NCBI GenBank assembly: GCA_027574665.1
Contig: CM050662.1
Location: 6,540,501-6,604,500 of the forward strand
Source: Rhynochetos jubatus
Taxonomy: Eukaryota > Chordata > Aves > Eurypygiformes > Rhynochetidae
Direction of reading: 5' to 3'
Length of the DNA: 64,000 nt
This document shows, piece after piece, positions 20,440 through 61,546 of the stretch. The number at the start of each line of letters is the position of its first letter. The stretch's first letter is position 1. The notes below the pieces were generated by a model. That model worked only from the letters and a program-made list of their open reading frames with translations. It was not told the DNA's origin and searched no databases. The translations under genes and the position numbers were made by a program.

Positions 20440-21195
20440 CGATCCGTGGGCTGAGGCCACTGTGTGAGGCCACAACAACCCCCTGCAACGCTGCGGGCTT
20501 GAGGACGAGGGGCTGGAAAGCTGCCTGTCGGAGAAGGACCTGGTGGTGTTGGTTGGCAGTGGCTGAATATGAGCTGGTGTGTGTTCAGGTGGCCCAGAAG
20601 GCCAGCGGCAATCAGGAACAGTGTGGCCAGCAGGACCAGGGCAGGGATCGGCCCCCTGTGCTGGGCACTGGTAAGGCTGCACCTCCAATCCTGGGGTCAG
20701 TTCTGGGCTCTTCACAAGACAGACACTGAGGGGCTGGAGCGTGTCCAGAGAAGGGAACGGGGCTGGGGAAGGGGCTGGAGCACAATTCCTGTGAGGAGCG
20801 GCTGAGGGAGCTGGGCGTGTTCAGCCTGGAGAAGAGGAGGCTCAGGAGACCTTACCCTTACCCTTACCCTTACCCTTACCCTTACCTCTCTCTACAACTC
20901 CCTGAAAGGAGCGGGCAGAGGTGGGGGTTGGTCTCTTCTCCCAAGTGACAAGCGATGGGACAAGAGGAAACGGCCTCAAGCTGTGCCAGGGGAGGGTTAG
21001 GTTGGATGTTAGGAAATTATTCATGGAAAGAGCTGTCGGGCATTGAACGGGCTGGCCAGGGGGGTGGTGGAGTCACCGTCCCGGGAGAGATTTAAGAGAC
21101 GAGGTGCTTAGGGACAGGGCTTAGTGCTGGCATGAGCAGTGGGACATTAACCGTTGGACTCGATGACCAAAAAGGTCTGTTCCATCCTAAACGGT
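20440..21195 (+). repeat. CR1 LINE, 3' end of ORF2 plus 3'UTR
   Basis: The text follows the avian CR1 3' region almost phrase by phrase: 'gggctgaggcca', 'cacaacaaccccctgca', 'gctggaaagctgcctg', 'ggagaaggacctggtggtgt', 'gtgtggccagcaggaccagg', 'ggctggagcgtgtccagaga', 'gagcggctgagggagctggg', 'ttggactcgatgacc'. It is 5'-truncated, as most CR1 copies are. It is moderately diverged, and an internal CTTACC array has grown inside it. Its 3' end runs straight into the CpG island of the DLC-like gene. Confidence 0.92.
20851..20886 (+). repeat. (CTTACC)6 microsatellite inside CR1
   Basis: Six perfect CTTACC units sit where CR1 normally reads 'gaccttatcgctctctacaa', so the array probably expanded from the CR1's own 'cctta'. 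Rotated, the unit is CCCTTA, which differs from the vertebrate telomere unit CCCTAA. Confidence 0.95.
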
Positions 21196-21375
21196 TCTGC
21201 GGTCTCTGACGCGGGGCCCGGGCAGCAGCTGCAGGCCAGCCCCGCCGGCCGTGCCATGCGGGAGGCCGGTACCGCCGTCGGCACCGAGCCTGGCGCGGCG
21301 GCCTCGGAGCGCGGGTGGTAGAACACGGCGCGTGCGGGCACACCGACCCGCAGCGCGCGGCAGGGCCGGAGCGGC

Positions 21376-21445
21376 ACGGCTCGGCTCGGCTCGGCTCGGC
21401 TCGGCTCGGCTCGGCTCGGCACGGCTCGGCTCGGCACGGCTCGGC
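21376..21445 (+). repeat. Pentanucleotide array, 14 units of tCGGC/aCGGC
   Basis: Fourteen consecutive 5-bp units fill 70 bp: eleven tcggc units and three or four acggc variants, with eight perfect tcggc in a row at 21,381-21,420. It lies about 165 bp upstream of the DLC-like start codon, so in the promoter or 5'UTR. Such arrays are usually length-polymorphic. Confidence 0.95.
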
Positions 21446-21607
21446 GGGGCGTGGCCGGGCGTGGCCACGGCCACAGGCGGGAGCGGCGCGGAGCGGCCGG
21501 CGAACCGGGGAGGTTGCGGGGCAGGGCTGGCGGCCGGGGGGGCCGTTCTTCGGGGCCAGAGGGTCCCGGCCGGGTTCGTACGGCGGAGGAGCGGCCGGCA
21601 GCGGTAG

Positions 21608-21620
21608 ATGACATCCTCGG
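21608..21620 (+). CDS. DLC-like exon 1 (coding part, MTSS)
   Basis: ATG ACA TCC TCG G then donor gtgaga. The leftover G joins AA of exon 2 to make Glu5, giving MTSSEIEAREACDWL, which matches the short N-terminus of DLC1 isoforms. The in-frame triplet directly before the ATG is TAG, so the reading frame cannot extend upstream. Confidence 0.75.
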
Positions 21621-24600
21621 GTGAGAATTCAGGTGGGTGCTGCGGGGACCTTCCGCTCCTCTTCAACATCGCGCCTCTGCCAGTGGGAAAGCGCAGGGGC
21701 GACACGCGTGGTTTGGGGCTTGTTGCTTCTGTTGCTGTAGGTTTGATGGTGGCTCTGGTGGGAGCAAGCGGTTACCCTTCCCGTTACAGCTCCTCCTAGG
21801 AACTTTACATCAAACATTCCTCAACTGCACGCCAGGGTCCTGGAAAAAACCAGCCCTAAGGAGCTCCAGTGTCAGAGAAACAGTGTGTCTGGTCCTGGTT
21901 CACAGCCAGCAGGACCGAAGCGCGGAGAAGCAGTGTCCCCGGGGTTAGACTGCAGGGAGACAGATGCCCTGTCTCTTGCCCCACTTACCTGGGTAAGAAT
22001 TTTCAAGTGGATTTGGAAATTAGAGTTACACGCTCGTTTCTCCTGAAGTCGATGGGAGTTAGACACCTAATTCCCTTGAGCCCTCTGAAACTCTTGTAAA
22101 GCAAACACTACCTTCTCTAACATGTAGAAGCAATTAAAAGATCAGCCAACACTGACAAGCTGGTTAATGTGCTTTGCAAAGAAAATGCCTTTAAACTTGT
22201 CTAGGTCCCAGTAACCGACATGGGAGGTTAATGACAAGGACCTGAGTAAAGATCCTAATGTCAGCTTGGGAGTTGTAGTAATCAGCTCGGGAACCTAATG
22301 CCAAGGAGCTGGATAAAGATGCAATTAAGGCTGCCACGAAGCCCTGGGATACATTGCAGTTCCCAGCTGTGATAACTGAAGAGTTGGCTGCGGTTCCAAA
22401 ACACCAGCATGGTAGTAAAGTAGGAACAAAAGGACAAATATCTCGGCCTTTTCATTTTCCAGACATTTATATTCACTATCTGCATGGAGCCTAAATTATC
22501 CTGGCAAAATCCCAAACAATCCTTTTTTTTCCCCCTATTCCTCGAGTGGGTTAATAAAGTGCAATTAGACTTTCCTATTTTGCATTGCACAAGGGACAAC
22601 AGAATAAACATTTCCACTCACTTATGATCCATCTCAGCTTTTTGGAGAGTTTGACAGTTTTAGAAGTCCCTGACTGCTTCCCCTGGTCAATGCATTTGAA
22701 AGCATCGCTTTTGAGCCTTCAACTTGGAGTAGACAACATGTTCAGACTGTCTCTTTAAGTAAGAGGAGATAAGTTAAGAACAAACAGTTGTTGAAAATCC
22801 TGTCACAGGTGCCATGAAGTTCTGAGCATCCTCAGGCAATCATAGCTCTAAGGCAGTAAATGCTTGTGTGTGTAAAAGGAAAGAGCTTATGAGCAGCTGT
22901 AAGTCATAGGGAACCAATACAGATTTTTATAGCCCAAGGAAGGTACACAGGCTGGAAAGGTGCAATGGGAAGCTCATAATTTTATCTTCAACTGGACCCT
23001 GAAAAGCCTTGTCACTTCCACCACTGCCAGCACAACCAATAATGACAGGATCTAAGTCACCACGGGGAGGATCTGCCAGCTCCCAGCCGACGGCTGGTGA
23101 GCTCTCGGGAAACAGCACTCAGAGCTCGGCTGCCAAGCACGCCCGGTGCCTGCCGACTCCAGCGCTGGAGGAGGCTGAGGGGGATGATAGTTGGGATTGT
23201 CAGTGCGAGGAGGCATCAGCATCTTGCTGTGCTGGAGCAGTCGGCTGTGTTGTGCCAAATCAAGCAGGTTTTGAGGCAGGGGCTCTGGGCATCTGCTTGT
23301 CTGTTGCTGTCGTAGGAGGGTTAGTGCCATGTGGGGAAAAAAATCTTCTATATAATGACAGAGATTGGGAAAGAACAAAATTCTCTGTGGGTGCTTTTTT
23401 TTTTTCCTGTTCCTTCCAGATTTGTCTAATAACGTACTCAAAGTCAGCCAGTCCTACCCTCCTTTCTGTTCTCCTGTCTGTACTCGCACGGCGTGGGGAG
23501 GAGCGGGTGGGTGCCTGCTAGCTGGACACGTCGAGAAAATCCGTTCCTTTCGCGAGCACTGCACTTGCGTACTACAGACAAGCGGACGAGTAGGGTCCTG
23601 GAGGTGCTGCAGACAGCCAGAAAACCTCTCAAACTGTTTGCTCACTGGCATGGTTTTGGAAGATGTTCAGACTTAAATGCAAGTCTTTCTGATTACGTTA
23701 ACACCTGATCACCATGTGATTCTTACCTGTCAAAACTGGAAAACTATGTTCTAGGAAGACACAAGTAATGCATCTACCACAGGTTTTAAAGATATCCTAA
23801 TAAAATACCTTGAAAATAGGAGAGCTACGATGAGAGCTCTGTGAAAAATGATACATTCAGGTGGAGGTTCCATCCTCCCGAAGGGCTGCTGGCTACAGCT
23901 GGGCAGTTGCATGTTGCCACACCTCTCCCTTCATGTGCCCGCCGCGGCCCTTCTCTTGCCACTGGTGCTCATCAGAACGTGTGGTAGCCGATTCAGAAAG
24001 CATCAGCCTCACAAATCTGATCTTGCCAAAAACCAGTGAACTGTTTCCTGCCAGTTTGGCTGGCCAGGCCTGCTCGCACAGGCTCGGCGGTGTCAGTGAG
24101 GAGGGGTAGGAACATGCCATCTGGGGAAAGGAGAGAAACAGGACTCCTGCTTTGGCAGCAGATCTGTGCAGCTGAAAAGTCATGCTGCTTCCTGAGAATT
24201 TTTCTCAGGTTCATTGTACTTATGCTATCAAACAGAAATTTGCATCCTCCAATTTTATGTAGAGGAATATTTTTTAAAAATCGAACTACAATTTGACACC
24301 CCCCTTTGGTTGAAGCTTGTGATCATCTTGTAGTAAGACCTGTTTCATCTACAGTTTCTCATTGGTTTGAGCTGCTGCCTCTCCCTTGTTGTTAGGAAAA
24401 TGCCACTTCTTGTGAGGAAAAATCTGGAGAGTGCCTAAATCTCAGCACAGATGTCTTCGTTATTGCAGGCATTCCTGTTAACACTGATGTTCGTTCTGAT
24501 AGGGATTTAATGCATCTCTTGGCAACTACTTTCTAAGTACCTGATGGCTCTGGGTTTTCTCCCCAGTCTGCTCAGATGGGGGAATGCAGGTTTTCAGGTC

Positions 24601-27600
24601 TTAATCCCAAGTGGGCGAAGGAGAGGAGCTGCCAGCCGAGCTCATGTAGGTACTGGGGCTCCGGGGCAGCAGAGCACAGAATGGCATCGTGGTGCAGAAA
24701 AAGGGGCAGGAGCCGTGGAGAGCAAGGTTTGCTGGGTGTCGTTGGGACAGGCGTGCTGTGGCACAGCCATCATTCTGAATGCTGTTTTCAGTGGACTGAA
24801 TCATCTTCAGCACAAACGGACCCGTGTAACATAGTACAGCCGAAGGATGGCACGGGTCATGTGCTTGTTTATTGTTTCTCATAAACATCTGGCAGTAACC
24901 ATGGCCCATGGGAAAACAGCTTAAAGGCTGCTAGCAAAATTTCCATGCCAAGCCAGCTAAGATAGAATATTAAGCTTTGCAGGAAATGATTTTTTTTTTT
25001 TCCATCTGCTTAATTATGAAATCAGTTCATGAGAAGATGACATGTTCAGGTTGCTCTGCTACTTCCATTGTGCAGATGGTGCCCAAAAGATCTGTTAAAA
25101 TTGTCATCCCCTTGTATGACATCTAGCTCACAAGCAGATAGGCTGAAATTGCAGTAGTATTTGGGGGTGCAGCTCCGTACTGTCTTTCTGAAGGCTCCCC
25201 ATTCCCACTTTCTGTTCAAGAACAGAAACTTCTCTCCAACAAGCATCTGAGCAGCTATTCTAACATCAAGAAGGACTAAGCAGTTGCTATCAGCTTGTGT
25301 GTATTAGTACATCTATTTTAGAAGTTGGTTTGTAAACCTGGGAAATTCTTTTGTGGTGACTGTACGGCTATAGAAATGGGAGAGCAAATTCTAGGCAGCC
25401 GGTGAGGCTGGCTGGGGAGGTGCATGTCACTATTGCATGGCGAGGGGGAGTAGACAGGCTGTGGAGCCGAGCTAGGATGAGAAACTAGGAACGGGTCTTC
25501 TGCACAAATGCCTCATCTATACTATTTGTCTTGCCAAAAAGCCAGCATGAGGGTCCTTTCAATAGTCCCAGAGAGTCTTCAAGAAGCTTGTTGCTGCTTT
25601 TCATGACAGAATCTTACATAGGAAACTGAACTTTGGCTGCTTTGAAGTGCATGCCTTAAAGCATCGCGCAAGTTGCCAGGACCGTGATGGTTACTTTAGC
25701 ACCTCCTTAGAGCAGGATTTATAAGTATCTGTTGCACGTTTGTAACAGCTGCTGCCAAGCATGCCCAGTGCTTGCTGACTCCAGTTGTGGAATTTCTTAT
25801 TTCCTTTTTATTTCCTCCTCCCATAGTGATCATTATCATAGTAACAGAGGCTGGTCTGGGAATTCCCTTTCATCAGAGTAAAATTCCTAGGCATCCATTA
25901 CCCCTTTATGATTTCAGTTTTCAGTAGCGCTGGGAGAAGGCAGCGTAGACATCCCTGAAATACAGAGGTATCAGTAGGACCCTTTTGGTTTTTATTTTAG
26001 CAGTGACATAGTGGCAGCAAATCTAGTGGCAAATGCTTGTACATACGTAGGCCAAGAACTTGCTAGTGCTTCATGGGTTGTCTCCAAACATGGCGGGGAC
26101 ATTGCAATGTGGGACTGTGCAAAGGTATGTTAAAAGGCCCTGAAGACCTACATTAGCAGAGAAAATTCCCCCAGCTTCCGTCTCCTTGTCCTACGAAGAG
26201 GCCACCGCTAAGCGTAGGATTGCCATCGTATTTTCAGTCATATTCACTGAAAATGCCGTCGCCATCTGCAAAATATTTTCTAGCCGGTTCCCGTTTGCAT
26301 CACTGTTCACGGCTTGGTTTGCTCTACAAACAGAGTTGTACTTTTAATGTGTTGGGAACTGGGGTAGCTTCAACCCCTGCACAGTCACTCTCCCGTCTGA
26401 GCTCAGGGCTCAAGCTGACCAGTGGAAAGCGAGCTCTGGAATGAGGACAGCCATCGTTTCTCCACAGCTGAGCAGGCTGAGTGAGTCTACTGGGTTTTTC
26501 AAAGTGAAAATCACTTTGTCTGTGAAGACTTTCAGTGGTAGACTGGTCATCCTCCTGGATCTTTCCTACAGACTTTTTTCTTTCCTGTTTCGCTCTGTGA
26601 GTACAATGCTTGTGTGTTATCAGTCCCCTGTCGTGGTATTCAGTAAATGCTGTGTTACGATAAAGATTATGATAAATTGTGTCACTAAGTATAGTAATAA
26701 ATGTAGGCATGGTGTATATAGGCTATTGTGGCCGAAATTAGTTTCTGTTCTGCAGCTTGGAAAAAAAAAAATCATGCATCTTTTTTAGGTAGAAATACTC
26801 TTATCACCCTGTGGTATCGCTTATTCTCAGATGAAGAAGCCGTAGAGTTTTGTGCAACAAAGCCTTTGTTATGGATGGCATTGTCCAAATTAATCAAGTG
26901 ATAATGGAAATAATTCCAAGTTTAGAAGTAGAATAATAAAATCATGGGTGTCCTGGGAGTTTTTTGATGGGTTTCTTCAGTCTGTTGCACTGATGACTTA
27001 CAAGTGAGACCTTAGAGCAAAGCCAGCAGTGAATTTGAATAGGTATGCACGCAAAGTGCCTTGGAATTCTAATCTTTCAGTGTACATGTAAAGAAAATAG
27101 TTTTTAAAAATGGGTCTGTTCCTCTACCCTAGCTACTTTTTTAAGGTGCTTTAAAAACATTCCTCTCTACTGAGCATGCTTTATTTTAAGGCAAGTTTTC
27201 AAATGTTTCTTTTGAAGGGGTCTGCCTTTTGGTTGGTGTCTGCTGTACTGGGGTACACGCAGCCACACAGCAAGTGTACTGTGGGAATCCTCTCCTCTTC
27301 AACAGACCCAGTAATTTCTCTTATTTGCAGAGTCTAGAGCCTGCTGGCATGTAGTTATGCTAAGCATGTTTATGTTTTTGAGGAATCTGGTGAGCGTTCT
27401 GTGATTCTGTGAAGTTATATTCTGCTCCTGCAGGAGTGTTACAGTATTGGCCATAGGGCTTTAGGAATTGTCACCAAATGAGCAGTTAATTCTTGACATC
27501 TGCTGTGCTGAAGCGACTGCCAAGTTGCGTTGGTAGTTGGCAAGGAAATAAATATTGATAGACCCTAGCAACAGGTACTCCCGAGAAGCCTTGTTCTGGG

Positions 27601-30600
27601 AATGCTTGGGCTGTGTCCAGTGTTATTAATGTTGTGATAGCATTTTAAGTTTATTTATAGGATTTGTTCGTGTCTTATCTCCATCTCTCAGAACTGGAAT
27701 GCATGAATGGGCTTTGCTGTGCGAGGGCATAGACACGCGTATCACACCCCCCTCTCTGGTGACTCACTGCAACACACAACAGACCTCAGGGGTAGCTGAT
27801 GCACACCCAGGAGTGACATCTCGAGCGTGTGCCCATATCTAGACTCCCCGAGGTTTGCTCTCTATCCTACGCTGGAATGACTGCTCCGGAGCTACGTACG
27901 TAACAGTGCATCGGATACAAGAACTGCTTTCTTTTCAGGAATAGAGCCTCTGAGGATCGACCAGATGCCGTTAGCTTGCTTATATTGTGAAAGCGGTAAC
28001 TCTTGTGAGTAAACGAACGATTTTATGTTCTCGTTGCAGAAATTGAAGCCAGAGAAGCCTGTGACTGGCTGAGAGCTGCCGGCTTCCCCCAGTATGCTCA
28101 GCTGTTTGAAGGTACGATCCCAAAGAAGCCGACACTGAATTCAAGTAGAATTGGTTACGTAAATTGTATTTCGGAACCTGGCACTTTTGATGGAAGCACT
28201 TCCAAATGCTGTAATAATCCTCATGCAAACCTGTAGAAAAAGAGTCACCTGTGTGTCTTGCAGAAGTGACAGCTTCAGTAGGTTAGCCTGGGCTCAGCAG
28301 GACTCTGTAAAGACCAAATCTTTCCTGGTTATTTTTAGACTGTAACTCAGCCCAATTTCTGCTTTTGTGATTTTTAGTTCCTTACAATTTTCTCAGGCTC
28401 TTTTCCTTGACGTGTTGGGTTTTTTTTTTTTCCGACTCGCTGACGGCAGCCAAAACTCACCTAAGGCTCTCCAGCTTGTGGTCTTGTGTAAGATTGTTTT
28501 ATTGATGTTTCCAAAAAGAAGGTTGGGAAAATCATCTTGCAACCTGAAGTTTTTCAAGCAGATACTCAGAAGCAGTCAGCCAGTCAAACAATGCAATTTC
28601 AGCATGCTTTCATGTCGGTAAAGCTACAAAGAGTGCGTGTGGGGGAGGTAAGGATTTGTTGAGAAGGTGTATAATTTTCAGACAACACTTGTCTGCCTTA
28701 AAACTGTTCTTTATAAAATATGTTTATTGTTACAAACATTGCATGTAACAAAAGCCGATCTATTTTTAAGAGAGACTTTATCAAAGAACCACAGCTACAA
28801 GAACAAACAGTAACTTCTGCCTGCTCTTACTCCCACCTCTCCCATTCATTGCCAAATTAAAAATTGGAAGTCAAGCAATAGAGCCAAATTTGAAAGCTGA
28901 ATACTGTGAAACATGATGTCTCATGGAAATGCTTCCTGTTTGACTGCAGCAGATTTTATTGTATAAGCTGTCCATTACAGTTCTTTTGGAAACGTACATT
29001 GTCATACTTCGGGAAAATGAACCCTCTGCATTACCTTGCTCTTTATGCAGTGTCCTGACCTGACTAGGTAAATTAAAAAGTAAGCTAAGAAAATACTGTT
29101 GGATCTCACTGGTTTCCTCATCTGCAAGGCTCAGTCTCAGAAGCTGAAACACTGAACTCCGGCTGCCGCATCGGTTCGCCGCAAGCACAGCATGACTTGG
29201 AGGGCTCGCTGCACCCCAAAGAGCATACGCCACGTGCTGTATTGCACCTTACCATCAGCAAGAGCTCATGTAAAATAGTCCGGGTTTCATGCTGTACTTG
29301 AAAGCAGAAGGTGCAGAGAACCTAACTAAACCAGAGCTTTATTTCTTTATTTCTTGGCTATAGTACCCAGTCACTGCAAGCTCCTGGAAGTGCAGGTGTA
29401 CCTGTGACTGCTAACAGCTGTAGTCTCCCACTTGCCCCAAGGAACTGATCCTCACTTACTTGAGGGACATTTGGGTGAATATATAGAAATACATTTAGGT
29501 TTAGATTACCACCTATGGTAGATACGATTCAAAATTCAAAGTCTTTGGAATTACAACTCAGCTTTCAGATTCAACTTCTTTGTTTGCAGATATGCAGTTT
29601 CCTATTGACGTAAAAACTGTGAGGAAAGATCATGAATTTTTAGATGGAGATGCGATTGAATCACTATTCAGGTAAACGTGAATTATGAATCATCTTCAAT
29701 ACCGGCAGTATCCGCAGTTGTTTGTCGTTCATCTTTGCATGCCTGAGTTTTTGTAAGGGACTAACAAAGCCACCAGTGCTGCCACTGGAGGAAATCACTT
29801 AAACACGTACTTTAGTACCACAGAAGTTGGCTGTTGTAAGACTTTAAAGGTAAAGTAGGCACGTCTCTGCACATCGTCTTCAGCCGAGCTCGCAGTGACG
29901 TTATGCTGAGCGTCACACCTGTTCTGTAATGTGCAATGTCTGCGGGCTGAGAAAGAACGATCGGTTCCCCGCAAGCACACGGTGGCATGACGGTCTGCTC
30001 TTCAGAACTGCACATTACAGAGTGCAGGGATTTCCCCTGACTAGTGAGCTTCCCCAGAGCCGTCCCAGGAGACAAACGGCAAAAATGATCTGAGCAAGAG
30101 GTCCGCTTTCTGTTCTGCTTTCCTGAATACGTTTTCCAGCGAGCAGCAAAGGTATGGGTTTGAAGGGACTGTTCTGCCACAGCTGTACACAGCACACAAA
30201 GGAAACTGCGTCCTCAGTGCAACCTCGTTGCTCCGTGGGCTTTCCCCCGCCAGGACAGTGCGGAGGCATTCTATTTTACCGCTTCCTGCAGTTATCAAAG
30301 CCTTCCCCCGATGAGTTGCTTTAGCAGCTGAGGTGAACTCCATGCCGCACCACTCGGCCGATCCGAGGGACGCAGTAAGAATTTCTAACTCGTAAGGGAC
30401 TGGAAAGTTCCTCTTCTAGCAAAGTGCTTTGGTCCTTTTCTGTATCATCAGGTCACCGGACTACAAATTCTGCTTGTAGCAGGAGCGCCGGCTGCGGTTG
30501 TTTGCACAGGTGTCGCTAACGCACGGCAGATAGTGGAGAACTGGACATATTTTGTTTCTTTATATGACTTCTGTCCTGAGTGCTCCTTGGAGGCTGCCAG

Positions 30601-33600
30601 TGTGCCTCCCTGGGGATGCCATGGATTGTTTGACAGTTCAGTGACTGGCTGGTTTGGGGGCTTACTGATTCCACAACTTTTAATTAAGCTGATTGATCAA
30701 TAATAAAGTCTTTCCAAGGATATAGGTTAATGTCCTAATTTTTTTTTTTTTATTCTCTTAAGAAGCCCACTCAGAGTTTCTTTCATTTTCAAAATCTTAA
30801 ATCAATATACACTTTTTAAAAATCATACAATGAGCTTTAATGATTGTGAATTAACTGATTAATTACAGTCCTCTAATTTTAAGACAGCAGAACTGGAACT
30901 GTGAACATCATGGGGTTGTTAGCTGGTGCTGGCTTTGGCAAAACGTAAGGACAACCGCTAACAGAATTTGGTCTTTGAGCCCCAATAATGAAAACTCCAT
31001 GGTAGAACCTTGTAACTACCACTAGTTTGGTACCTGCTTGTTTTCGAGAAATAAAACAGTTTAAAACTTGTGTCCCTTTTCTTGTACCTTAGGCGGTTGA
31101 ACACATTGAACAAGTGTGCATCACTGAAAGTGGAAATAAGCCGTCAGAGGAAACGGGTATGTTTGTAAAATATAGTTAATTTTCTCATGAAAAATGTGGT
31201 TATCTATTATTATATCAAAAAACTGTTTTTAAAAGATGTATGAAGGATTAGCAATTTCTGAACTTCTCTTACTATTCTCTTCCATCCTTCAAAGCTCTTT
31301 CATTTGCATTTTCAGCTGAAAAACATAGTGGTGGAAATTGAAAGTATGTGATGTTCATTTAGTAACTCTGTAAGGCAGGTTAGGGGTGGGTTTAGAAACA
31401 GTTTTCAGTAATAATTTGATGCAGATTATTGTCCAAGAGTTGCACCAAGGCCCCACCTCAGCATGTCTTTTATTGCTTTTCTAAATGGTTTCACATCTTA
31501 TTTAAGGCCTGAGGGTGAAATTTCACTCTTACTGTCTGAACGAAGGATAAGAAACTAAAATGGAGAATCCAGACAGTGTCAGCCAGTGTCAAATGTCCAG
31601 CCAACAGGAGCTGGATAGGTTTTAGCTGGGCTGGCTTTGTCCCCTCCTGCAAAAAGGTACCGTAGCTGAAACAGAGTTATAGCCTCACCTTGGCTGGCTA
31701 GCACCAGGATTGTAACGCCTCTCGGGTACCGTGGATGAACTGCAGCACTAGCGAGAAGATAATGTCAGCTTTTGGAAAAATGTCTGGTGTTCTTGGAAAG
31801 TTCCACTCCGCCGTCAGGGAAGAATGGGGCAAGAGGGGGTCTGCAGAGGAGAGACAGGTCATCCCGCCCTCTCTGGCCAGGTGCCCACTGGGGGCAGGGT
31901 CAGTACAGCAAATGGAGCGCCGGGGGCATATGGCCAGTGAGGTCCCCAGGAGGCTGAGCCAGGTGCTGGTGCTGCCACAGTCCCACAGCCAAATGCTTCT
32001 TTACCTGAAAGGGGATGAGTTTTGGCCACGGAATCGTTAAAATGCTTGTTTGGCTTTAGGAAAGGCCATGCAAACCCAAAACGGTTATCTTTCGAAACAT
32101 ATGGAATTGCCACAAAACAGATTTTTTCATCCTCAGATCAAATCTGTCACCTTTTCCTGTGGTAAACCTGCCAGATTTGTCAACGTGCTTGCGAGTGATT
32201 TGTCAGCATGTTTTTCAACTGAGAGAACAGAGCTCAGGGCAGCCCTTCAGTTACAATTCCGTATGCTTGGGGGTTTTGGAGGTAGTCAGAAAATTTGTGT
32301 CTCCTTTTTAATTACACTTTTTGCTAATTTAAAGTTTGCCAAACTTTGCTCTTGAACTGTACGTTTTTTTTCCTTCTAAGAGTGACGACTCTGAAGACGA
32401 TGAACCTTGTGCAATAAGTAACAAATGGGCTTATGAGAGGTGCAGCCAGAGATGGTCTCGTATCGAGAGCCTAGGAGGTTTCCCAGGAGAGGAAGGTGCC
32501 AGTGCATCAGTCCCAGACAGTCCCATACTGAAGAGCAGCAGCAACGAGGATACTATCTTTCTGGAATGTGGGGAGAAACATGATGTGTCCTCGATTCACA
32601 GTACTAGCAGTGGTGACAGTGACACCGTTAGCTTCCCAAGACCTTTTGAAGACGTTGAAACCAGCACGAGTTCCTCAAGGTGTTCCTCAATTAAGGTGGC
32701 TTCACTGAACTCTTCTTTTAGTTGTTCTCCTCCCACCAGTGAATTTTTAAACAGCACCAGTGAGGAGAAGCTTTTGGATAAGTCGTCACATAAAAAGAGG
32801 AAGAGCCTTCTAAAGAAAATGGAAAAGTTGCACTTAAGGAGCTCCAATTTAAGGAGTGGTCAGTCAAAGACCAAACCCTTAATAAGTGAACCTGTTCTCC
32901 TGGAAGGACTTAATGAAGAGAAGATGAAGATGCTGAACTGTGTAAATATTTCCGACCTCTCTGGCATCCAACCCAAGAACAATTCTTCTTTTTCTCCCCA
33001 GCATTGCAATAGCAACAATCAGTCTGAAAATGGCCGGACAGCGAGCACCCCAAGTCCTGTTACACAACCAGGAAGCCACTGCGAAGGAAGGGGGGTGCCT
33101 GCGGAGGACTTGGATTCTAGCAAGGTCTTGCTGTGGAATGATCTATCCCAGCAAAACTTGAAAAATGACCTGAAGTTCCACATGAACCAGGTGTTTCAAA
33201 TACCACAAGGCCATAAACCTGGCACTTTCCCCACAGCGCTTACAAACAGCTCCCTCTCTCCAGTAGACAACTCTTCCGTCAACTGGAGAACTGGGAGTTT
33301 TCATGGGTGCAGGAGGAGCCAGAGAAGAAGCAGTTCCAAGGACTCCAAAGCCCCCAGGAGTCCCCTCTCATGCACGGATAACAGGCTAAGCGTATATGAC
33401 AACATGCCCAATATTGAACTCGATAGTTTGGAGACAGCGCAAGTTGGTGACGACGACGTCTTTTCAGAACTGAACAGCGTTATAGAAGATGTCAACAGTC
33501 TCAAAAAGTTGGTTGATCAGTGGACAGAGAAGTTCTCCAATGATGAGGATTTGGACTTTGCCGGTGACTTGACCTCTTTGTATCCACCCTCACCCAAAGA

Positions 33601-36600
33601 AAGCTGTCCGGAAACAGGGAGCTCAGAAGATACGGCAGCAGACCTCCCACCCACGGAGGGAGAGCGCAGCCGCGCTCTGGGCAAGGAGATCAGTTCTGCA
33701 GACCTGGCGTACACGACAGACTCTAGAAAAACCAACAGGTCAGCCATCCTTGGGGCTCCTGAGCAGGCTGCCCCTTGGGAACCTCTCCCCATTGATTCTC
33801 TCCCCTCAAAACGTAATTGCTTTTCAGGCAGGTCTGTCGTGGGTAGCAGGGCCTGCACCGCTGGTGCCAGGCACCGCGGGTCCACAGGCACCCTGGTACC
33901 TACCCCTGCTCCGGCCTCTGTTAAAAGCAGGGTGCTCGTAACCTGCATGAGCCCTCAGACTTCTGGAATCAGACTTTATGGCTAGCTTGCTGTACTTAGT
34001 GAAACATTTTGTGTTGCCAGCTTACCTCCCGGGTGAGAAGCGCCTTGCTTAAACGCAACGAACCCTGCGGTGCTTGGGAACTGCAGGTCGTTCAGCGTCT
34101 GAGGTGCGTCACAGATGCGGGCATAAAACGAACGTGGACGATGGGAATAGTCCTAAGCTTAAACAATATTTATCCCGTAGGCATGGGACGCAACACTGGT
34201 CTGTGGAAGAGAACTTGGAAAGCCTTTCCATGCAGGCTGACAGCCAGTCAGCTGCCCAGCTAGCCCGGACACAAAAGCTGGCCCTGTTGAAACTCACTGC
34301 TCTGATGGACAGATACTCCCCTTCCAGTAAGCAGGGCTGGAACTGGTAAGTCGTCTGATGCTAAAGCCGCCTGCGTTGGAAGCAGAGGATTTGGTGTAAG
34401 CGGGTGAATTTCCTTGTCTGCCTAGATCACGCACGTTCAAGACGGGGAATTTCGTCCTGTTAAATTGCTGGCAGTTGCGTGGTTATTTCAGTGGCTCCAG
34501 GATTCCCGCTGCTGTGGACTGCACTTTCACTCCTCGCTGGTGGCCACGTTGTCACTGCTGTTAAAGCATGTTGTAGTTCCTCTCTAACTTCACCCGTTGG
34601 CAGGGCTTTGGCAGAGGTCCTTCACAGAGATGGCAGGACCTGAGGTGAGAGCTGGCTGGGCTGAGAATCCCCCTCCTCAGCATCCAGGGCCTGTTAGAAC
34701 TGAAACAGCATCTCGAGATAGGGATCTGGTACCTGAGTGTAGAATGAAGTGAAAAAAGCCTGCAGCCTCCTAAAGGGATGGAACATACTTCACATGAGGA
34801 GGCTTTACAAAGCTCATTTCAGCTTTGGAATGAGGAAGTCATTCCTGTAATTGCCCTTGATGATTTTCTCTCTGTCTTACGATGCTGTGCATGTGGCAGA
34901 ACTGGGCTTGTGGCTGTGCATGTGGCAGAACTGGGCTTGTGGCTGTGCATGTGGCAGAACTGGGCTTGTGGCGAGCATGGCTAAACCCTTCCGGGTGCAG
35001 TGGCAGGCGGGACTGTGCTGGAGAGCTGAGAAGTGACTGCACTGGGTTTTGTTTTCAGGACTATACCGAAGTTCATTAAAAAACCGAAAGCCTCTGACTA
35101 CAAGGACAAGAATGTGTTTGGGGTTCCTTTACTTCTGAATGTTCAGCGAACAAGCCACCCACTGCCTAATGGCATACTGCAAGCACTGGACTACTTAAGA
35201 AGCCACTTTCTTGACCAGGTATGGACTTGAGGCAGCCCAGAGCAGTCTGTTCCGGTCTGCTCCAGGAACCAGACTGCTTCCAGCTCCTGTGAGGGACTTT
35301 CTTGCCTCCTAAAGGTCAGAGCAGGCAGCACGGCGTCAGTTTTATTCCCTGTGTTTTGTATAGGTGTGTAATGCCATGCCCAAGTACCAAAACGTGTCGT
35401 CCTGTGAAGTTACAACACGGTTTGGTGGCACATACCGGGGTGCGAGCAGGCAGATCCTTGTGAAGGCAGCGCGGTTCAGTTTGAAGCCGTGGTATCTGTT
35501 CAGGACTAAACCAATGAGCGTAAATACCGTCTCAGGGGCACACAGTGAAACTTACAGCAGAAGTTTTGTTGAGTTTGGGTTTATGGGAAACTTCTAAATC
35601 CAGGTTTTGGCTGGAATTCGATTGACTCACTCATACTAAAAATAAAATCATGATTTCCCCCAGAACGGCAACTGCCCTTTGCCAACCTGTAGATGTATTA
35701 GATGTATCAGACGTGTCAGATGTTAAACCTGAACCTTGTGGATCCCACAGTCTGAGTTTGCTCCAGCATGGGCATCAACGTCCATTTGCTTTGGGGTGAA
35801 CACAGGTCGATGCATGAGACACTTCAGTTCTGATGTGTGAGCGTGGCCTGCTCAAGCAAACTGACAGGTGTCAGTAGTAATGATTCTGAAAGTCAGAAAG
35901 CAAACATGAAAATGGGTATGTCTTCCACAGCTGGCTCTGTGGGCATCAGTCGTGGTTTGCCTAGGAGGAATATCTGTGCTGCTTCTAATGATACAAAAAT
36001 CCTTTGCCGTTAGATCCCACTACCATAGGGTCTTAGCGATCAAAAGGAAAGTGAAGGATCAATTCTTTGTCACAGGTTTCATTCCTGGTGACTCCTCTCT
36101 TTGTCTTTAATATTTTCTTTTATCCACAGGTTGGCCTGTTCCGAAAATCTGGTGTTAAATCCAGGATTCTGTCTTTAAGAGAAATGAACGAAACCAACCC
36201 AAACAACGTATGTTACGAAGGGCAGTCGGCATTTGATGTGGCAGATATGGTGAAGCAGTATTTCCGAGACCTTCCCGAGCCTATATTTACTAGCAGGCTC
36301 TGTGAATCCTTCCTCCACATCTACCAATGTAGGTGACAAAAGCGATAGTTTTCCAATTCCTTGAATATCTTAATATTCAGCTGTACGAGGCAGCGGCCAG
36401 ACAGGACTAGTGCCATGTCCCCGTGCAGTCAGAGGGGACAAGTCAGGCAGGATGTTTCTGAGAAGATGAGTGCATTGTGGGTCTGGACTTCAGACAGATG
36501 CAGATATCTGCATCCTGCGGGCCAGCTATTTTCTACTGTAGTCTCTCTTCTGTTCTTTGGAGGATGAGTGTAGTAATACATGATGTAGGAGAGCTGCTAC

Positions 36601-39600
36601 AACATGTTTTTAAATGGTCATTTCCTTCTGCAGAATTAGGAAGGAGTCTAGTCCCTTTGTTCATGGTGTGAAGTAGCTCCTTGTGCAAGAAGTCACGTTA
36701 TATTGATGACATTCCTCTACTAAGGTGCCCAAGCACGGTTGCTGTGAAACAGCATCTTTGCCTGGAAGCGCCAGCGGCTTTCTGCCGGAGCTCTCCCTGT
36801 TACTATCCTTGAAACTCAACCTGAAAAAGAAGGAAACGTGAGGCTGAAATCTGGCCTTGAATAAAGTTTTAAACAGGTTCTGTCTCCAGTACTTTGTCTC
36901 CAAGGAATTCACTTGCAAAAAGCAGCCGGGGAAGGAACTTATGATGGTGTTGCTACAGGCAAGATTCTTCTTCTTTTGAGAAGAGGTTTTGAAAGTCGAA
37001 ATACAAGATTTCTGAGTGGCCTGGTTTTCAGCCTAGTTTACGTGACTTTTAGCGACATGAGCACCTGAGCTGCTGCTGTCCTGTGTGCGGTGTAGGGTCA
37101 TGAAAGTTTGGTTTGATTTTTTTAATTTAACGAGCTTTTAGAATCTTGTCTGAAAACAGTTTGTTTGAAGCAAGTTTTCTTTTGGCACCCACAAATCCTT
37201 TCTGTAAGGAGATCCACAACTCCTGTGTCCAATGGGTGTGCGACCATTCTCTTCTGGTTGTTATAACCTGGCCACTGTGCCCCTCCTCTCCGTTGTTTTG
37301 GGGTAGATACAGCAAACGACTGAATTCTACTCACCCATCTTGTCCCACGTGTGGCTTGAGCAAGTGCCCAGACTAAACTGCTCTCTTTTGGAGATAAGAA
37401 ATGTGCTGTTTTCACCAAAAGAAGCACGTTTTGTGTGTTCTGCCTATGTGCTTCTACGCGAAGGGAAGGAGAAGTGACCTTCTGCCCTTTGCAGTGGTGT
37501 AAAGTGGAGACCTCCTCCCGCTGGGGCGGTGCGTGGCAGGACGAACCATTCCTGCCCTCCTGCAGCAGCTGCTCGGGCACACGGAGCACTGGCTTTGGCA
37601 CAGGTCACAATCTGTTGGCAAAACGTTGTTCTCCGAAGTGAGTCGTCTGAGAGCATCTCTTCCCTTCACGCCTGACGCTGCAAGGAAAAGACAGCGGAGC
37701 AGCTACCTGCTCCAAAGCATCGTTCCGGAGCAGTATTTTAGGGGGAGACAAGCCCTTATTTGGATTGTAACCAGAGCCGCCGGTTCAGAGAGGCTCATGA
37801 GCATGGTGTTCAAGATAAATTGCAAGCCAAGCACCGGTGTCAGTGGGTGCAGAGGTGCATCCTGACAGCAGAACTAGGACAAAACTGTACGACGTGACAG
37901 TGCCTTGTCTGTTGTGAGCTGGAGTGGCAGGAAAATGGGTGAACCTGCAGTTGGAATGCCCTGCTCGGGACTCTGTGCATGGCTGCTTCCCCTGCGACAC
38001 GCGTGACTGTCATTTTCTCTGTTTGCAGACGTGCCGAAGGATCAGCAGTTTCAGGCTGTCCAGGCTGCGATTCTCCTTCTCCCGAAGGAAAACCGGGAAG
38101 CTTTGAAAATCCTCCTGTTCTTTCTACGAGATGTGGTCGCTTTTGTTGAGGAGAACCAGATGACCCCAACCAACATTGCCGTCTGTCTTGCACCGTCTTT
38201 GTTTCACCTCAACACCCTGAGACGGGACAGTTCCTCCTCCTCCACGAGGTATTAGCATCCCGCTGCTGGCACTGCGGCCAGCCAGGGGGTTCTTTGCTGG
38301 GACAAGGCTTTCTGTAGCTGGCCTGGGGTCAGTGTCTGATTTTAAGGGAGAAATAGTGTATGTATGTGCCTTGGGGTTTGCCTCAAATCTGGTTGCTCGG
38401 GCCCAGCAGGAGCTGACCGCAGTGCACGCAGTGAAGCAGCAGCTCACTGTCCAGGGTCAGGAGCGAGGGTGAGGCCCCACCACTCGCTCCTACACGCGAG
38501 CTAGCCTGCCTCCCTCACGAGAGACTGCCGTGCTCCGTGGGGCTGCCCACAGGTCCAGCTGCCCCAGGCACGCAGCGCGTGGCCCACCGCTCGCGTTCAG
38601 GTGGCGCCGGCCATTGAAGACGTGGCTCCTGCACTGGCAACCTCAGCCCAGGTGCAGCTTTGAGGCCCCCCAGATACCTGGCAGATTGTAGCGGCTGCTG
38701 GCACCGGTTCTGGGTGATAAGGGGAACGTTCCTGCCAAACTGGGCCACAGGGATTCTGTAAATTTATCTTAGTAAGGACAAGTATCTGGGTTGCAGAACA
38801 TCCCGTTGGTACAGGGAGGAAGGTGCCCTTGGGCCAAAGTAGACGGATAATCTCTGAGAGCATTCACGCCTTATCTGGGCTCGAGGCAGGGCTGTTTGCT
38901 TTACTCCATGCTCCTGCTATGGACAGACGTATCAGGGTAGAAGAGGACAGCTGACTGATGGAAACACTCTGCGCCCGCCAGAGCAGCCAGTTAACCACCT
39001 CACTCGGGGGTCTACAGATGAGGAGTAGCCCCAAAGCAGAGGCTGGCAGATGTGCTATTGGCATCTTTCAGGCTCTGGATAGCACAGAGCGGGGAAGGAA
39101 AACACTGAGGGCTTGGCCTTAGAGTGGCGCAAAAGATGGGAACCTGCCGAAGCGTAGCTAGCCCCTGCGGCTGCCCAGCTCGCCCTGGGCTGAGCCGGTG
39201 CCTGCTAACGGAGCCCTGTGGTCACTGTGAGGGCAGCCCGGGATGCGATGGAGCATGAGGGCAGCGGGTCCTTCTGGACTGCAGCGGTGTCTGAGCTCCG
39301 GCAAGCCATGCTTTGCGAGCTGTGCCTCCTTGGTGTACGCAGCATTACTCTGAAAAACCAGGAGCAAAATAGCAAGGGAGTTTTCTCTTTGCTGTCACTG
39401 TTTAGAAGCCAGGATGCTTTGAAGCTTTAGCTTTTTTGTAACTGGGCATTAATGCCTTAGTGCAGGGCTCCAAAGGACTTCAAAGGGTAGAAGCTGACGG
39501 GTCTGCCTTTGAGGAGCAGTGCCAGGACTCTTATCTTCCGCCCAATTTTCAAGCCATTTGGCAGGAAAGCACACAGATAAACGTATCAGAAGCCAGGATA

Positions 39601-40160
39601 AATGATGTCACATAATGATTATAAATTAAAAGAGGGGACTGTTTTTGCAACGTGTACGGTGTGGTTTGGGCCAAAGGATTTAAACGTGGGCTTTGCAGAA
39701 TATCAAAGGAGCTTGGTGAAGGCTACACACAAATCAGTTTGGGGTCATCGCGGTCTTTGGCCAAGTGTGCGATGACGTGTTGGGGGGGATAAAAAGCCTT
39801 GACTTGCTTCTCTTGGGCATACACCACCACTGGCCAGTACTGCCCTGGGCACTTTCGGGGAGTGCTGGAAGGGAACGGACCTCGCTGCAGTAACGCTATG
39901 GCACGCAAGGGTCCTTCAACGCAGTGCGTGTTTGCTGACGCTGCCGGGTTCCAGCCCCTGGCAGCCCAGCTGAGCAGGCCCCTTGTACTGGTGGTTCACA
40001 GCATCTTGCTCACACAGCCCTCCTCTCCCCTCCCCCGCACCCTAGATCCAGTCAGAGGAAGTGCAGCTTGGGGAAGCCGGACCAGAGGGAGCTGAGCGAG
40101 AACCTGGCAGCAACGCAGGGCTTGGCCCACATGATCATGGAGTGCAACAGACTCTTCCAG
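21608..40160 (+). CDS. DLC-family RhoGAP (SAM-linker-RhoGAP), fourth-paralog candidate lacking a visible START domain
   Basis: Ten exons (21608-21620, 28040-28111, 29590-29671, 31093-31156, 32381-33738, 34181-34345, 35059-35218, 36130-36328, 38029-38248, 40046-40160) join in phase into 816 codons with no stop. SAM domain: residues 5-75. Serine-rich linker: 78-584, with family blocks HKPGTFP, VNWRTGSFHG and tensin-type SVYDN (Y416). A lysine-rich stretch (589-602) precedes RhoGAP at about 605-815, with arginine finger R643 in GLFRKSG and the NQMTPTNIAVCLAPSLF helix. Family members inactivate RhoA/Cdc42 at focal adhesions; that role is inferred. Linker blocks are closest to DLC1 and some RhoGAP residues (NNVCYEGQSA, PEPIF) to STARD8, so it is none of the three. 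The family's START domain and the RRDSGVGASLTR block before it are not seen. The 3' end is unresolved: the last donor (gtacgt) is intact but no next exon is recognisable. Confidence 0.88.
21621..28039 (+). other. DLC-like intron 1 (6.4 kb)
   Basis: No second gene is seen inside. An imperfect duplicate of about 40 bp ('gggaggttaatgacaagga' near 22,223 and 'gggaacctaatgccaaggag' near 22,288) and T-runs near 23,395 and 24,990 are the only visible structures. The intron ends in a good polypyrimidine tract and gttgcag. Confidence 0.7.
28040..28111 (+). CDS. DLC-like exon 2 (SAM, first half)
   Basis: Acceptor ctcgttgcag, donor gtacga. It encodes residues 5-28, IEAREACDWLRAAGFPQYAQ followed by LFE, nearly identical to the SAM start of DLC1 and STARD13. 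Confidence 0.93.
29590..29671 (+). CDS. DLC-like exon 3 (SAM, middle)
   Basis: Acceptor tgtttgcag, donor gtaaac. It encodes DMQFPIDVKTVRKDHEFLDG then DAIESLF, matching the DLC1 segment with 'FPIDI..V..DHDFLDRDAIE'. Confidence 0.93.
31093..31156 (+). CDS. DLC-like exon 4 (SAM, last helix)
   Basis: Acceptor gtaccttag, donor gtatgt. It encodes RRLNTLNKCASLKVEISRQR then KR. RRLNTLNKCA is a family signature. The exon ends exactly on a codon boundary. Confidence 0.93.
32381..33738 (+). CDS. DLC-like exon 5 (large linker exon)
   Basis: A 1,358-nt exon, equivalent to the single large exon of DLC1. It starts SDDSEDDEPCAISNKW and ends DSRKTN plus AG of Arg530. Family blocks in order: S/T-rich acidic start, KSLLKKMEKLHLR, EEKMKMLNCVNIS, STPSPVT, HKPGTFPTALTN, VNWRTGSFHG, RLSVYDNMPN (Y416), and an acidic LD-like helix at 434-462. 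The frame stays open for 247 nt past the donor, ending at 33,985; I treat that as intron because exon 6 joins in phase at AG|gtcagc and restores the family sequence. Confidence 0.92.
34181..34345 (+). CDS. DLC-like exon 6
   Basis: Acceptor ttatcccgtag, donor gtaagt. It completes Arg530 and encodes HGTQHWSVEENLESLSMQAD through LALLKLTALMDRYSPSSKQG. This matches the DLC1 block 'HRLRWHSFQ..LLKLTALLEKYTPSNKHG'. The family's conserved RRDSGVGASLTR is not found just before it. Confidence 0.87.
34886..34972 (+). repeat. Perfect 29-bp tandem repeat, 3 copies, intronic
   Basis: The unit begins tgtgcatgtggcagaactgg and ends gcttgtggc. Copies start at 34,886, 34,915 and 34,944 with no mismatch among them, so it is a recent or homogenised minisatellite. 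It lies in intron 6, about 90 bp upstream of exon 7. Confidence 0.97.
35059..35218 (+). CDS. DLC-like exon 7 (polybasic stretch, RhoGAP start)
   Basis: Acceptor ttttcag, donor gtatgg. It encodes residues 585-638: TIPKFIKKPKASDYKDKNVF, GVPLLLNVQRT, ALDYLRSHFLDQ. The lysine-rich segment corresponds to the phosphoinositide-binding basic patch described in front of the DLC1 GAP domain. Confidence 0.93.
36130..36328 (+). CDS. DLC-like exon 8 (RhoGAP, arginine finger)
   Basis: Acceptor tttatccacag, donor gtaggt. It starts VGLFRKSGVKSR; R643 is the catalytic arginine finger. It continues NNVCYEGQSAFDVADMVKQY and FRDLPEPIFTSRL. It ends on one base of Tyr705. Confidence 0.95.
38029..38248 (+). CDS. 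DLC-like exon 9 (RhoGAP core)
   Basis: Acceptor ctgtttgcag, donor gtatta. It encodes YVPKDQQFQAVQAAILLLPK, then ENREALKILLFFLRDVV and ENQMTPTNIAVCLAPSLFHL. The Asn-rich helix contacts the Rho switch regions in this fold. Confidence 0.95.
40046..40160 (+). CDS. DLC-like exon 10 (end of RhoGAP; last recognisable exon)
   Basis: Acceptor caccctag, donor gtacgt. It encodes SSQRKCSLGKPDQRELSENL then AATQGLAHMIMECNRLFQ, closely matching the family text before START. If the donor is not used, translation runs 72 more codons of proline/glycine-rich text to TGA at 40,377-40,379 (888 residues in all). A second possible acceptor, ctgtctctgcag, ends at 40,300. Confidence 0.9.
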
Positions 40161-40536
40161 GTACGTCCCTTGCTGCAGCCAGGCAAAAGCCCTGAGCAGC
40201 CTGATGCCGGTGGCCCTGCAAGACGTCCCTGTTTCTCTGGGCCTGGGAGAGGAGTGAGCCCTGCTGGCTCCAGTAGAGAGGTAATTCCTGTCTCTGCAGA
40301 TTTTACCGCAGCTGTTGGTAAGGGCTGTGAGAGCATTCCTCCATTGCCCCCTCATCCCCCAGCTGCTTTGGGGGTTTGACTCCCTGGGCTTGGGGCCAAC
40401 AGTACCTGTGGGGCAGAGGCTCTTGCAGGGAGGCCCTGGCCAGGGCCAACCATCCCTTCTTGTGGGAGTGGGTTGAAGTTGAGGTGCCTGGCCATGGACC
40501 CCAGTAATCCGGACCTGGACCTTGACCCACAGACCG

Positions 40537-40775
40537 ACTTCCCAGCTTGACCTCGGCCTTTCCTCATCATTATGGACTTGCCTGGCAATCACTAAACTGT
40601 GGCTGACCCTGGTTGCTGTCGCTGGACCTGATCCCGACCTCCCCTGCTGACTCACCTTCCTGGCTCAACCTCGGACCTCATCACCATGGATGTGTCTGAT
40701 GATCTGGACTCTTGGCTGGCCCTGGCTGCCAGCTCTGGCCTGGCTCAGGTACCGTGGGACCGGGAGGTTGCCCTG
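40537..40775 (+). repeat. Two diverged ~119-bp tandem monomers, unclassified
   Basis: The segment from 40,537 (cttcccagcttgacctcggc) and that from 40,656 (cttcctggctcaacctcgga) align phrase by phrase: 'cctcatcattatgga' with 'cctcatcaccatgga', and 'gtggctgaccctggttgctg' with 'ttggctggccctggctgcca'. Similar 'gaccctg/ctggccctg' text recurs near 41,520-41,630. It looks like an old C-rich satellite or an unclassified interspersed element. Confidence 0.55.
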
Positions 40776-42796
40776 CCAGCCCTGTTATCCCTCTCAACTC
40801 CCGGCCCCTCTCCCTGGGGGTGGCCACCAACCCTTGGTGCACCCTGACAGTCAGCTCGGGCCTTCTTGCGCCCTGCTCCAGCACCACGGCGGGGCAGGGG
40901 CCACTGTCCCATGGCTCCCCTGAGCTGACACATGGCCTTGCCCCAGGGCTGCCCCCAGCACTGACTTCCCCTGCCAGCCCCTGGCTTCCGAGTGACACCC
41001 ACCACCGCCCCCAGTGCAGCCTGGGGGCTGATCTCTCCATGGCATCATGGCCAGGGCTCCTAAGTGACCCCCTCTGCCCCCAGCCCAATCATGGGGGCCC
41101 CATTTCCTCAGCAGTGGCCTGAATCCCTCTGCCCAGCCCTGAGGCCCCTTGGGGTGCCCTGACACCTGCTGCCTACCCCACACTCTACAGTCAGCCCTGG
41201 CACTGTGGCAGCTGGCCCCATCCCTGGCTGCACAACCCCCCGAAATAGCCCTGCAGGAACTGAGCTGCCCTTGGACACGTGGACATCTGCACACTCCTGC
41301 TACGATCAGGACGCTTCACCACAAGCACCGCTGATGTCTGTGAGCTGAGGGGCTGCCCCTCACCGAGGGGTGCTGGGGTCCTGCTGCTGTGCCCCTGCCC
41401 TGCCGAGACTCAGAGACCGCCTGGAGCTGCCTCCCTTCTGCTGGTGATCATGAAGAGAGGCTGCAGGCAGCTCCACAGGCTGCCCTAAGCCGTGCCCGGA
41501 CACGCACTCACTGCTCTGGACCCGGACCCTGATGCTGGCCCTGCCTGGTCACTGCAGCTGTTGTTGGTCGTCACTGGATGTGGCTGATGGTTACCACCAC
41601 CGAGCCTGACCCCGCCTGGCCTGGCCTCAGCTCTCGTGACCCGGGCTCTCGGGTGGTCACCGCCGTTCCCAGGCTGCGCTGCGTCTCCCTCAGGTAGGGT
41701 GGGTGCGTACCTGATGTCTGACATCAGATAACTAGACCCGTGTATCTCCTGTATCCAGCTCTGCAAGTACAGATGTACATACACACGCGTACATCAGCGA
41801 GCACCCAAATCGAGTGCAACACCTACTCCGGAGTGGTAGCGAAGCCTCGTTTCTGTGCTGCTTTACCTCGTGCAGCAGAGCTTCCAGCGCATCCCAAAGC
41901 TAAGGCAGGAGCCACGGCCCGCTGCCCTGCAGTCACTCTTGTGGTTACCAGAGATGGATGTGCACCCAGCAAAGGGCTTTGCCGACTCTGTAGGGATGCG
42001 AATAGTTGCTGCTGCGGGGAAAGGCATTTCCCTCGTGTCTGCCTCTGAGGGAATGCAGTTAATTGATCTGCTCCTCTCCTGGGCTTCCCGCTCCTCCAGG
42101 CAAAACCGCTGCCTGCCTGCGCCGGTGCTGCGCCTGCAGCAGGCAGCCTAACGCCACTGCCCTCCGCGAGAGGGGCCCTCAGGAAGCCATCCCTTTTTGG
42201 GGGCTGGTGCAGGCCACCCACACAGGGCAGCGCTGCGGATGCGTGTGTTTGCAGGCAGTACACCCCACAGCCCGCACTCCCTTGCCCTGGTGAGCACGTG
42301 CTGTTGAACACCTCCCCGGTTCAGTCCTCGAGCGTGACACTGGATCTCTTTCGCAGGCTCCTGACCGCTGCCTCGGTCAGCTCACCAACAGCACCGTGAG
42401 ACGAGCACGCCGAGTGCCAGCGCCTTGCCCTGCCGGGCTGGGCTGAGACAGCCTGGCTCCCCTGGGAGCTCTGTGCTCTGCTCAGGGATGCCCAAGGTGA
42501 CACCACGGGCTGGGCGACCTGCTCACGCCTGGCAAGTAAGGTAAGGTAAGGGTGGGGGCCAGCAGAGTAAGATTGGCTCTGGGAGTGTGGGCGACTGTGC
42601 TGTGGCTAGAGGGTTGCCTGGAGGTGCTCTTGGGTGTTCTGAGATCTCAGCCCTCATGCTCTGGAGACTGAGGCAGAGCAGCCCTGGGCATGGTCCTGTG
42701 GGGTTTGGTTCCTGCACAGAGAATTGCCCTGAGCTGCACCCATGCCCCCTCCTGTCTGCCTCTGTACCTGTGGCTTTTGATGCCATCCATGCTCCT

Positions 42797-42884
42797 GTTC
42801 TCTCCTTATCTTCCTCCCTCCCCTCTTCCTTTCTTTCCTCACTTCCTCCTTGCCCTTCATTCCTTCCTCCTTTTCTCTCCTAAG
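42797..42884 (+). repeat. Polypyrimidine tract
   Basis: About 88 bp almost wholly of C and T (cttcctccctcccctcttcc and similar). On the RARS1 sense strand it is a purine run about 60-150 nt past the likely cleavage site, a position where G/A-rich DNA can help RNA polymerase II pause. Confidence 0.85.
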
Positions 42885-42963
42885 GGGTGCTGCTCCCTGA
42901 CAGCATCTTCCCTTCCCACAACCCCAACCCCACAGACACACACACCTCCAGTTGTTCAGTCCC

Positions 42964-42969
42964 TTTATT
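42964..42969 (-). terminator. RARS1: RARS1 polyadenylation signal AATAAA
   Basis: TTTATT on the plus strand reads AATAAA on the gene strand, only 19 nt after the stop codon (42,989-42,991). The 3'UTR should be only about 40-50 nt. No other signal is near. Confidence 0.85.
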
Positions 42970-42988
42970 CTCACCCCACAGGGAACAG

Positions 42989-61546
<18,558 letters not shown>

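Follow-up and report, generated by a model that had tools for sequence, protein, structure and literature searches.

A stretch of 64,000 nucleotides from the bird Rhynochetos jubatus (assembly GCA_027574665.1, contig CM050662.1, positions 6,540,501 to 6,604,500, or C17:6540501-6604500 in our contig numbering; hereafter the window, which is free of N) contains a gene, here given the working name DLC4, that is probably a fourth paralogue of the DLC RhoGAPs. It would have split off on the DLC1 side before birds and mammals diverged, most likely in the early vertebrate duplications, and would since have lost its START exons. Its three relatives, DLC1, STARD13 and STARD8, are cell-shape regulators that end in START, a lipid-binding tail thought to release the GAP enzyme; DLC4 is a member of the family by descent, and not a bearer of the full SAM-linker-GAP-START architecture. 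A fourth member beside RARS1 would complete a quartet, and studies of DLC proteins in birds may miss a paralogue. We found no description of a fourth DLC paralogue in the literature, judged by titles and the openings of abstracts (predicted-gene databases lay outside this search, and an unnamed automatic annotation may well exist), and the excerpts of papers available to us give the family three vertebrate members.

Rebuilt from the DNA, the DLC4 model comprises ten exons spanning 21608-40160 (2448 nt), with 816 codons, no stop and GT-AG boundaries at all nine introns, and it reproduces exactly the coordinates of the ten in-phase, cleanly spliced exons proposed in a preliminary description. 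The open frame encodes SAM, linker and RhoGAP in that order. The model goes beyond chance, since exon lengths and phases are shared across the family: the entry phases of exons 2-10 are identical in all four DLC loci of the genome, and exons 2, 3, 4, 7, 8 and 10 have equal lengths in each (72, 82, 64, 160, 199 and 115 nt, respectively). Pfam places SAM_2 at residues 10-68 (E 3.7e-7) and RhoGAP at 624-765 (E 8.5e-37); the best solved relative is the GAP domain of DLC1 (Rho GTPase-activating protein 7; 3kuq, E 1.3e-95), and the SAM domain matches the DLC1 and STARD13 SAM structures with E values of 4e-28 to 6e-25. DLC4 has both a DLC-type N-terminal SAM domain and a DLC-type RhoGAP domain with its catalytic arginine, and retains R643, K680, R684 and N753, to which we assign catalytic roles on the assumption that they act as in other RhoGAPs. 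Positions invariant among the three bird paralogues are kept at 42 of 48 sites in SAM, 73 of 144 in the linker and 128 of 158 in GAP, and the codon-position differences of DLC4 (0.21-0.24, 0.15-0.17 and 0.49-0.60 at the first, second and third positions) have the low-low-high pattern usual for coding DNA. The presumed promoter is a CpG island, next to which the observed/expected CpG ratio is 0.25-0.52. At the level of the DNA sequence, a working gene is favored by the open frame and the splice sites, by the conserved residues and by the CpG island. Its N-terminus is tentative, as the case for exon 1 consists of an ATG inside the island and a GT donor, the start context is weak (T at -3), and an in-frame TAG lies directly 5' of the ATG.

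A protein search of the whole assembly (1.33 Gb, 148 contigs) with the 816 residues produced 30 matches, in which DLC-type exons occurred only at C17, C4, C2 and C14, the one other match being a weak RhoGAP on C1 (E 4.1e-4). Working versions of the human DLC1, STARD13 and STARD8 sequences served for comparison; the GAP part of DLC1 agrees with 3kuq. Against these, the C4 locus is DLC1 (linker 82% identical), the C2 locus is STARD13 (START exons 71-95% identical) and the C14 locus is STARD8 (59-79% identity over the better pieces). Exons 2-14 could be assembled for each of the three, every one with four START-region exons and a stop at its end. The view that the window holds a fourth DLC-type gene, distinct from the known three, is thereby borne out, as those three are present elsewhere in the same genome; that DLC4 might be one of these genes, STARD8 for instance, relocated to C17 was rejected for the same reason.

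Similarity over SAM, linker and GAP, along with trees that were unrooted and without an outgroup, speaks for common descent with DLC1, STARD13 and STARD8. Over the matched part of the exon 5 linker, DLC4 is nearest to DLC1, as first described (39% identity, versus 34% for STARD13 and 28% for STARD8). In the GAP domain it is 73.0% identical to bird DLC1, 72.2% to STARD13 and 63.8% to STARD8, the lowest of the three, while the bird-human orthologue pairs reach 95.7%, 88.5% and 83.3%, respectively. The GAP tree (seven rows) recovered the three orthologue pairs, with DLC4 outside them. When the linker was included (five rows, without human STARD8 and human STARD13), DLC1 and DLC4 were split from STARD13 and STARD8 with support of 99.3/100, and removal of the START columns, leaving SAM-to-GAP data, still gave 99.7/99. 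With DLC1 (ARHGAP7, STARD12), DLC4 has in common the SAM-linker-RhoGAP order, the exon phases and the YDN(V/M)P motif, which it retains; with STARD13 (DLC2), the exon structure; and with STARD8 (DLC3), the exon structure, the domain order and some GAP residues (DLPEPIFTS). Unlike all three, it has no START domain. In approximately unbiased (AU) tests, trees with DLC4 as the sister of bird DLC1, STARD13 or STARD8 were rejected, both with the GAP set (p 0.048, 0.025 and 0.0004) and with the full set (p 0.0011, 0.0033 and 0.00008). A recent duplicate or translocation within one lineage, the outcome that the preliminary description had named as counting against an old paralogue, is thus rejected by the AU tests as the origin of DLC4.

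The surroundings of the gene are consistent with an ancient origin. PANK3, to the left of the window, is followed by DLC4, RARS1 on the opposite strand and then WWC1, in agreement with the RARS1/WWC1 neighborhood reported earlier; an FBL-type bait for FBLL1 had no match in the window, the 40 kb to its left or the 20 kb to its right. A WWC1 bait matched best on three contigs, which carry WWC1 (C17, 27-70 kb past the right end of the window), WWC2 (C4) and WWC3 (C2); ten weaker rows elsewhere are probably other WW proteins. The caudal (CDX) activation domain had four matches in all, a pair on C14 separated by 23 kb and the others on C17 and C2; all 13 sarcoglycan matches fell on C2, C17 and C4, one group being 0.4 Mb from DLC1. 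Members of these families, which were picked beforehand, lie on the four contigs that hold a DLC gene, C2, C4, C14 and C17, and the sharing fits the pattern expected of a genome-duplication quartet. The proposal that DLC4 goes back to the two early vertebrate genome duplications accords with this chromosome-scale paralogy. FGF genes, with 34 matches on 11 contigs, were not diagnostic as markers. An account of the ParaHox paralogon itself is given in the excerpt of PMC2020491 available to us. Two repetitions were seen among the markers themselves. On C17, a sarcoglycan 3' exon pair occurs twice with near-equal scores (14252878-14254783 and 15266148-15268056, ~1.01 Mb apart), owing either to a large duplication or to an artifact of assembly in which one copy was duplicated; and two full-length CDX activation domains on the same strand of C14 (23887070-23887462 and 23909895-23910293) may reflect a tandem duplication of CDX.

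In this assembly DLC4 has no detectable START exons, and the only DLC-type ones belong to the three known paralogues. Exon 10 ends in CAG/gtacgt, in phase 0 and with no stop codon; from the equivalent junction, DLC1, STARD13 and STARD8 splice into their four START-region exons. The 816 residues do not make up a complete protein, as there is no stop codon and the sequence ends at a splice donor; the preliminary description did not mention the missing START domain. A profile of the START region, built from three human sequences (working versions) and three from the bird, detected the 12 paralogue exons at E 2.7e-42 to 1.2e-18, values that are partly circular because those exons are inside the profile, and had no match across the window (best E 6.5). 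As an independent control, a STARD13 START query recovered every one of the eight exons that cover this region in DLC1 and STARD8 (E 6e-29 to 3e-6); over all 148 contigs at E<=1, it found only 12 exons, four each in DLC1, STARD13 and STARD8. Pfam START had ten matches genome-wide, none of them on C17, and neither the window nor C17 provides DLC4 with the domain. On the strength of the profile, query and Pfam searches, we reject the idea that START exons lie concealed in the interval, on the opposite strand or elsewhere in the assembly. From the exon 10 donor to the RARS1 poly(A) signal on the minus strand is 2.8 kb. On the plus strand, no AATAAA or ATTAAA occurs from 40161 until 44113, although single variants are present (ACTAAA at 40591 and CATAAA at 43466); 11 weak acceptor candidates for a terminal exon lie in 40176-43000, none of them distinguishable; and no tandem repeats were found at 38000-46000. 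Read-through past the donor would add 72 residues, which have no Pfam match.

Several points weigh against an old, DLC1-side paralogue that outlived the loss of its START exons. With GAP alone, DLC4 grouped weakly beside STARD13 (support 45.5/57), three placements were not rejected, and its branch was the longest of the tree (0.29 versus 0.02-0.15). The more conservative Shimodaira-Hasegawa (SH) test rejected only the STARD8-sister tree (GAP 0.015, full 0.049) and, without the START columns, none of the three recent-duplicate trees. The paralogon families were picked via human map positions that we take to be 5q, 8p, 13q and X, and not by a blind scan, which amounts to the confirmation of an expected pattern, and on C17 these families lie 8-11 Mb from DLC4. 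The START profile was built partly from its own positive controls. Within the protein, two blocks common to the three paralogues are lost: LDDIL reads LNSVI, and the RRDSGVGASLTR block is gone. Lastly, the 3' end is unproven and the gene could be broken, as neither a stop codon nor a poly(A) signal was found for it. The phylogenetic points leave some room for DLC4 as a copy of DLC1, STARD13 or STARD8 that was duplicated or translocated recently in the bird lineage, since the GAP-only data leave its attachment open and two or three such trees, depending on the columns, survive the SH test. We nevertheless regard such a copy as very improbable: AU rejects all three trees with both the GAP and the full-length data, and the linkers of DLC4 and DLC1 are only 35-39% identical, compared with 82% for those of bird and human DLC1.

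Two further explanations bear on the missing exons. A recent pseudogene, in which START was deleted lately and the remainder has not yet decayed, would account for the missing 3' exons, the lack of a stop and the lack of a nearby plus-strand poly(A) signal, but it is unlikely given a reading frame of 816 codons that neither a stop nor a frameshift interrupts, nine intact introns out of nine and a retained CpG island. As 4.0% of single changes in the DLC4 coding sequence create a stop, some stops would be expected after a long period of neutral drift. A complete DLC4 whose START exons were lost from the assembly by collapse or misjoining in a GC-rich interval is less likely still: exon 10 is followed by a well-formed donor with the position and phase of the family, and the interval is ~60% GC, but the window has no N, the interval leads without a break to the last exon of RARS1, which is intact, and the STARD13 query found nothing beyond the exons of the three known paralogues. 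An old paralogue with START since lost thus remains the reading that we prefer. A bolder form of it, which we put forward tentatively, is that DLC4 is a surviving fourth ohnologue of the two duplications, missing from the human set and long functional without START, either as a constitutively SAM-restrained RhoGAP with a non-lipid release or as a SAM/linker decoy in competition with DLC1 at adhesions.

If the preferred reading is correct, a DLC4 protein would be made that ends soon after GAP, either by read-through into the intron sequence that follows exon 10 or in an undefined terminal exon, and it would be expected to stimulate GTP hydrolysis on Rho-type GTPases. A close precedent is a laboratory construct, the delta-START form of Drosophila Cv-c, with the same domain set of SAM, linker and GAP (excerpt of PMC5854602). 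In that excerpt, Cv-c that lacked START alone showed no activity in the ectoderm and Cv-c that lacked SAM as well was active, and the model proposed by its authors is that START relieves a repression that SAM exerts on GAP; an excerpt of PMC9678365 adds a GAP-independent role of the START domain in the testis. By that model, DLC4 should be auto-inhibited by SAM unless another partner or a modification releases it. The Cv-c form was engineered, whereas DLC4 is natural and known here from sequence; it would be the natural counterpart of the laboratory deletion and a natural test of whether START relieves SAM repression, as the engineered form was inactive in the fly ectoderm (PMC5854602, as excerpted), yet the SAM and GAP sequence of DLC4 appears to have been preserved.

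Table 1. Features of DLC4 and its 3' surroundings (window coordinates).
Feature	Position	Strand	Remarks
CpG island, presumed promoter	21001..21800	+	GC 0.67-0.81, CpG observed/expected 0.96-1.06, three overlapping 400-base windows
Exon 1 with a tentative start (MTSS + 1 nt)	21608..21620	+	ATG; donor CGG/gtgaga; 13 nt
Exon 2, SAM domain	28040..28111	+	72 nt; length and phase same in 4/4 DLC loci; SAM_2
Exon 3, SAM domain	29590..29671	+	82 nt, matching paralogues
Exon 4, SAM domain end (RRLNTLNKCASLKVEISRQRKR)	31093..31156	+	64 nt, matching paralogues
Exon 5, serine-rich linker	32381..33738	+	1358 nt open
Exon 6, linker to GAP	34181..34345	+	
Exon 7, RhoGAP domain	35059..35218	+	160 nt in 4/4 DLC loci
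Exon 8, RhoGAP with arginine finger R643 (GLFRKSG)	36130..36328	+	199 nt in 4/4 DLC loci
Exon 9, RhoGAP domain (NIAVCLAPSLFH)	38029..38248	+	
Exon 10, GAP region end, last recognizable exon	40046..40160	+	115 nt in 4/4 DLC loci; ends LFQ/ in phase 0
Splice donor gtacgt, no recognizable exon after	40161..40166	+	equals paralogues' exon 10-11 junction
Expected site of START exons 11-14, none detectable	40161..42968	+	START profile without match; interval ~60% GC
Decayed dispersed repeat, between DLC4 and RARS1	40484..40745		36 other genome matches, 66-88% identity, which all fall inside this span
RARS1 last coding exon	42992..43099	-	86% identity to a RARS1 C-terminal bait; poly(A) signal 42969

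Apart from the DLC loci, RhoGAP exons were also seen in repeated arrangements elsewhere in the assembly. Five near-identical RhoGAP exon pairs with a spacing of ~10.4 kb form a tandem RhoGAP gene array at C3:17177987-17220456, and C16:10634660-10657662 and C3:12433332-12459776 resemble smaller arrays of the same kind.

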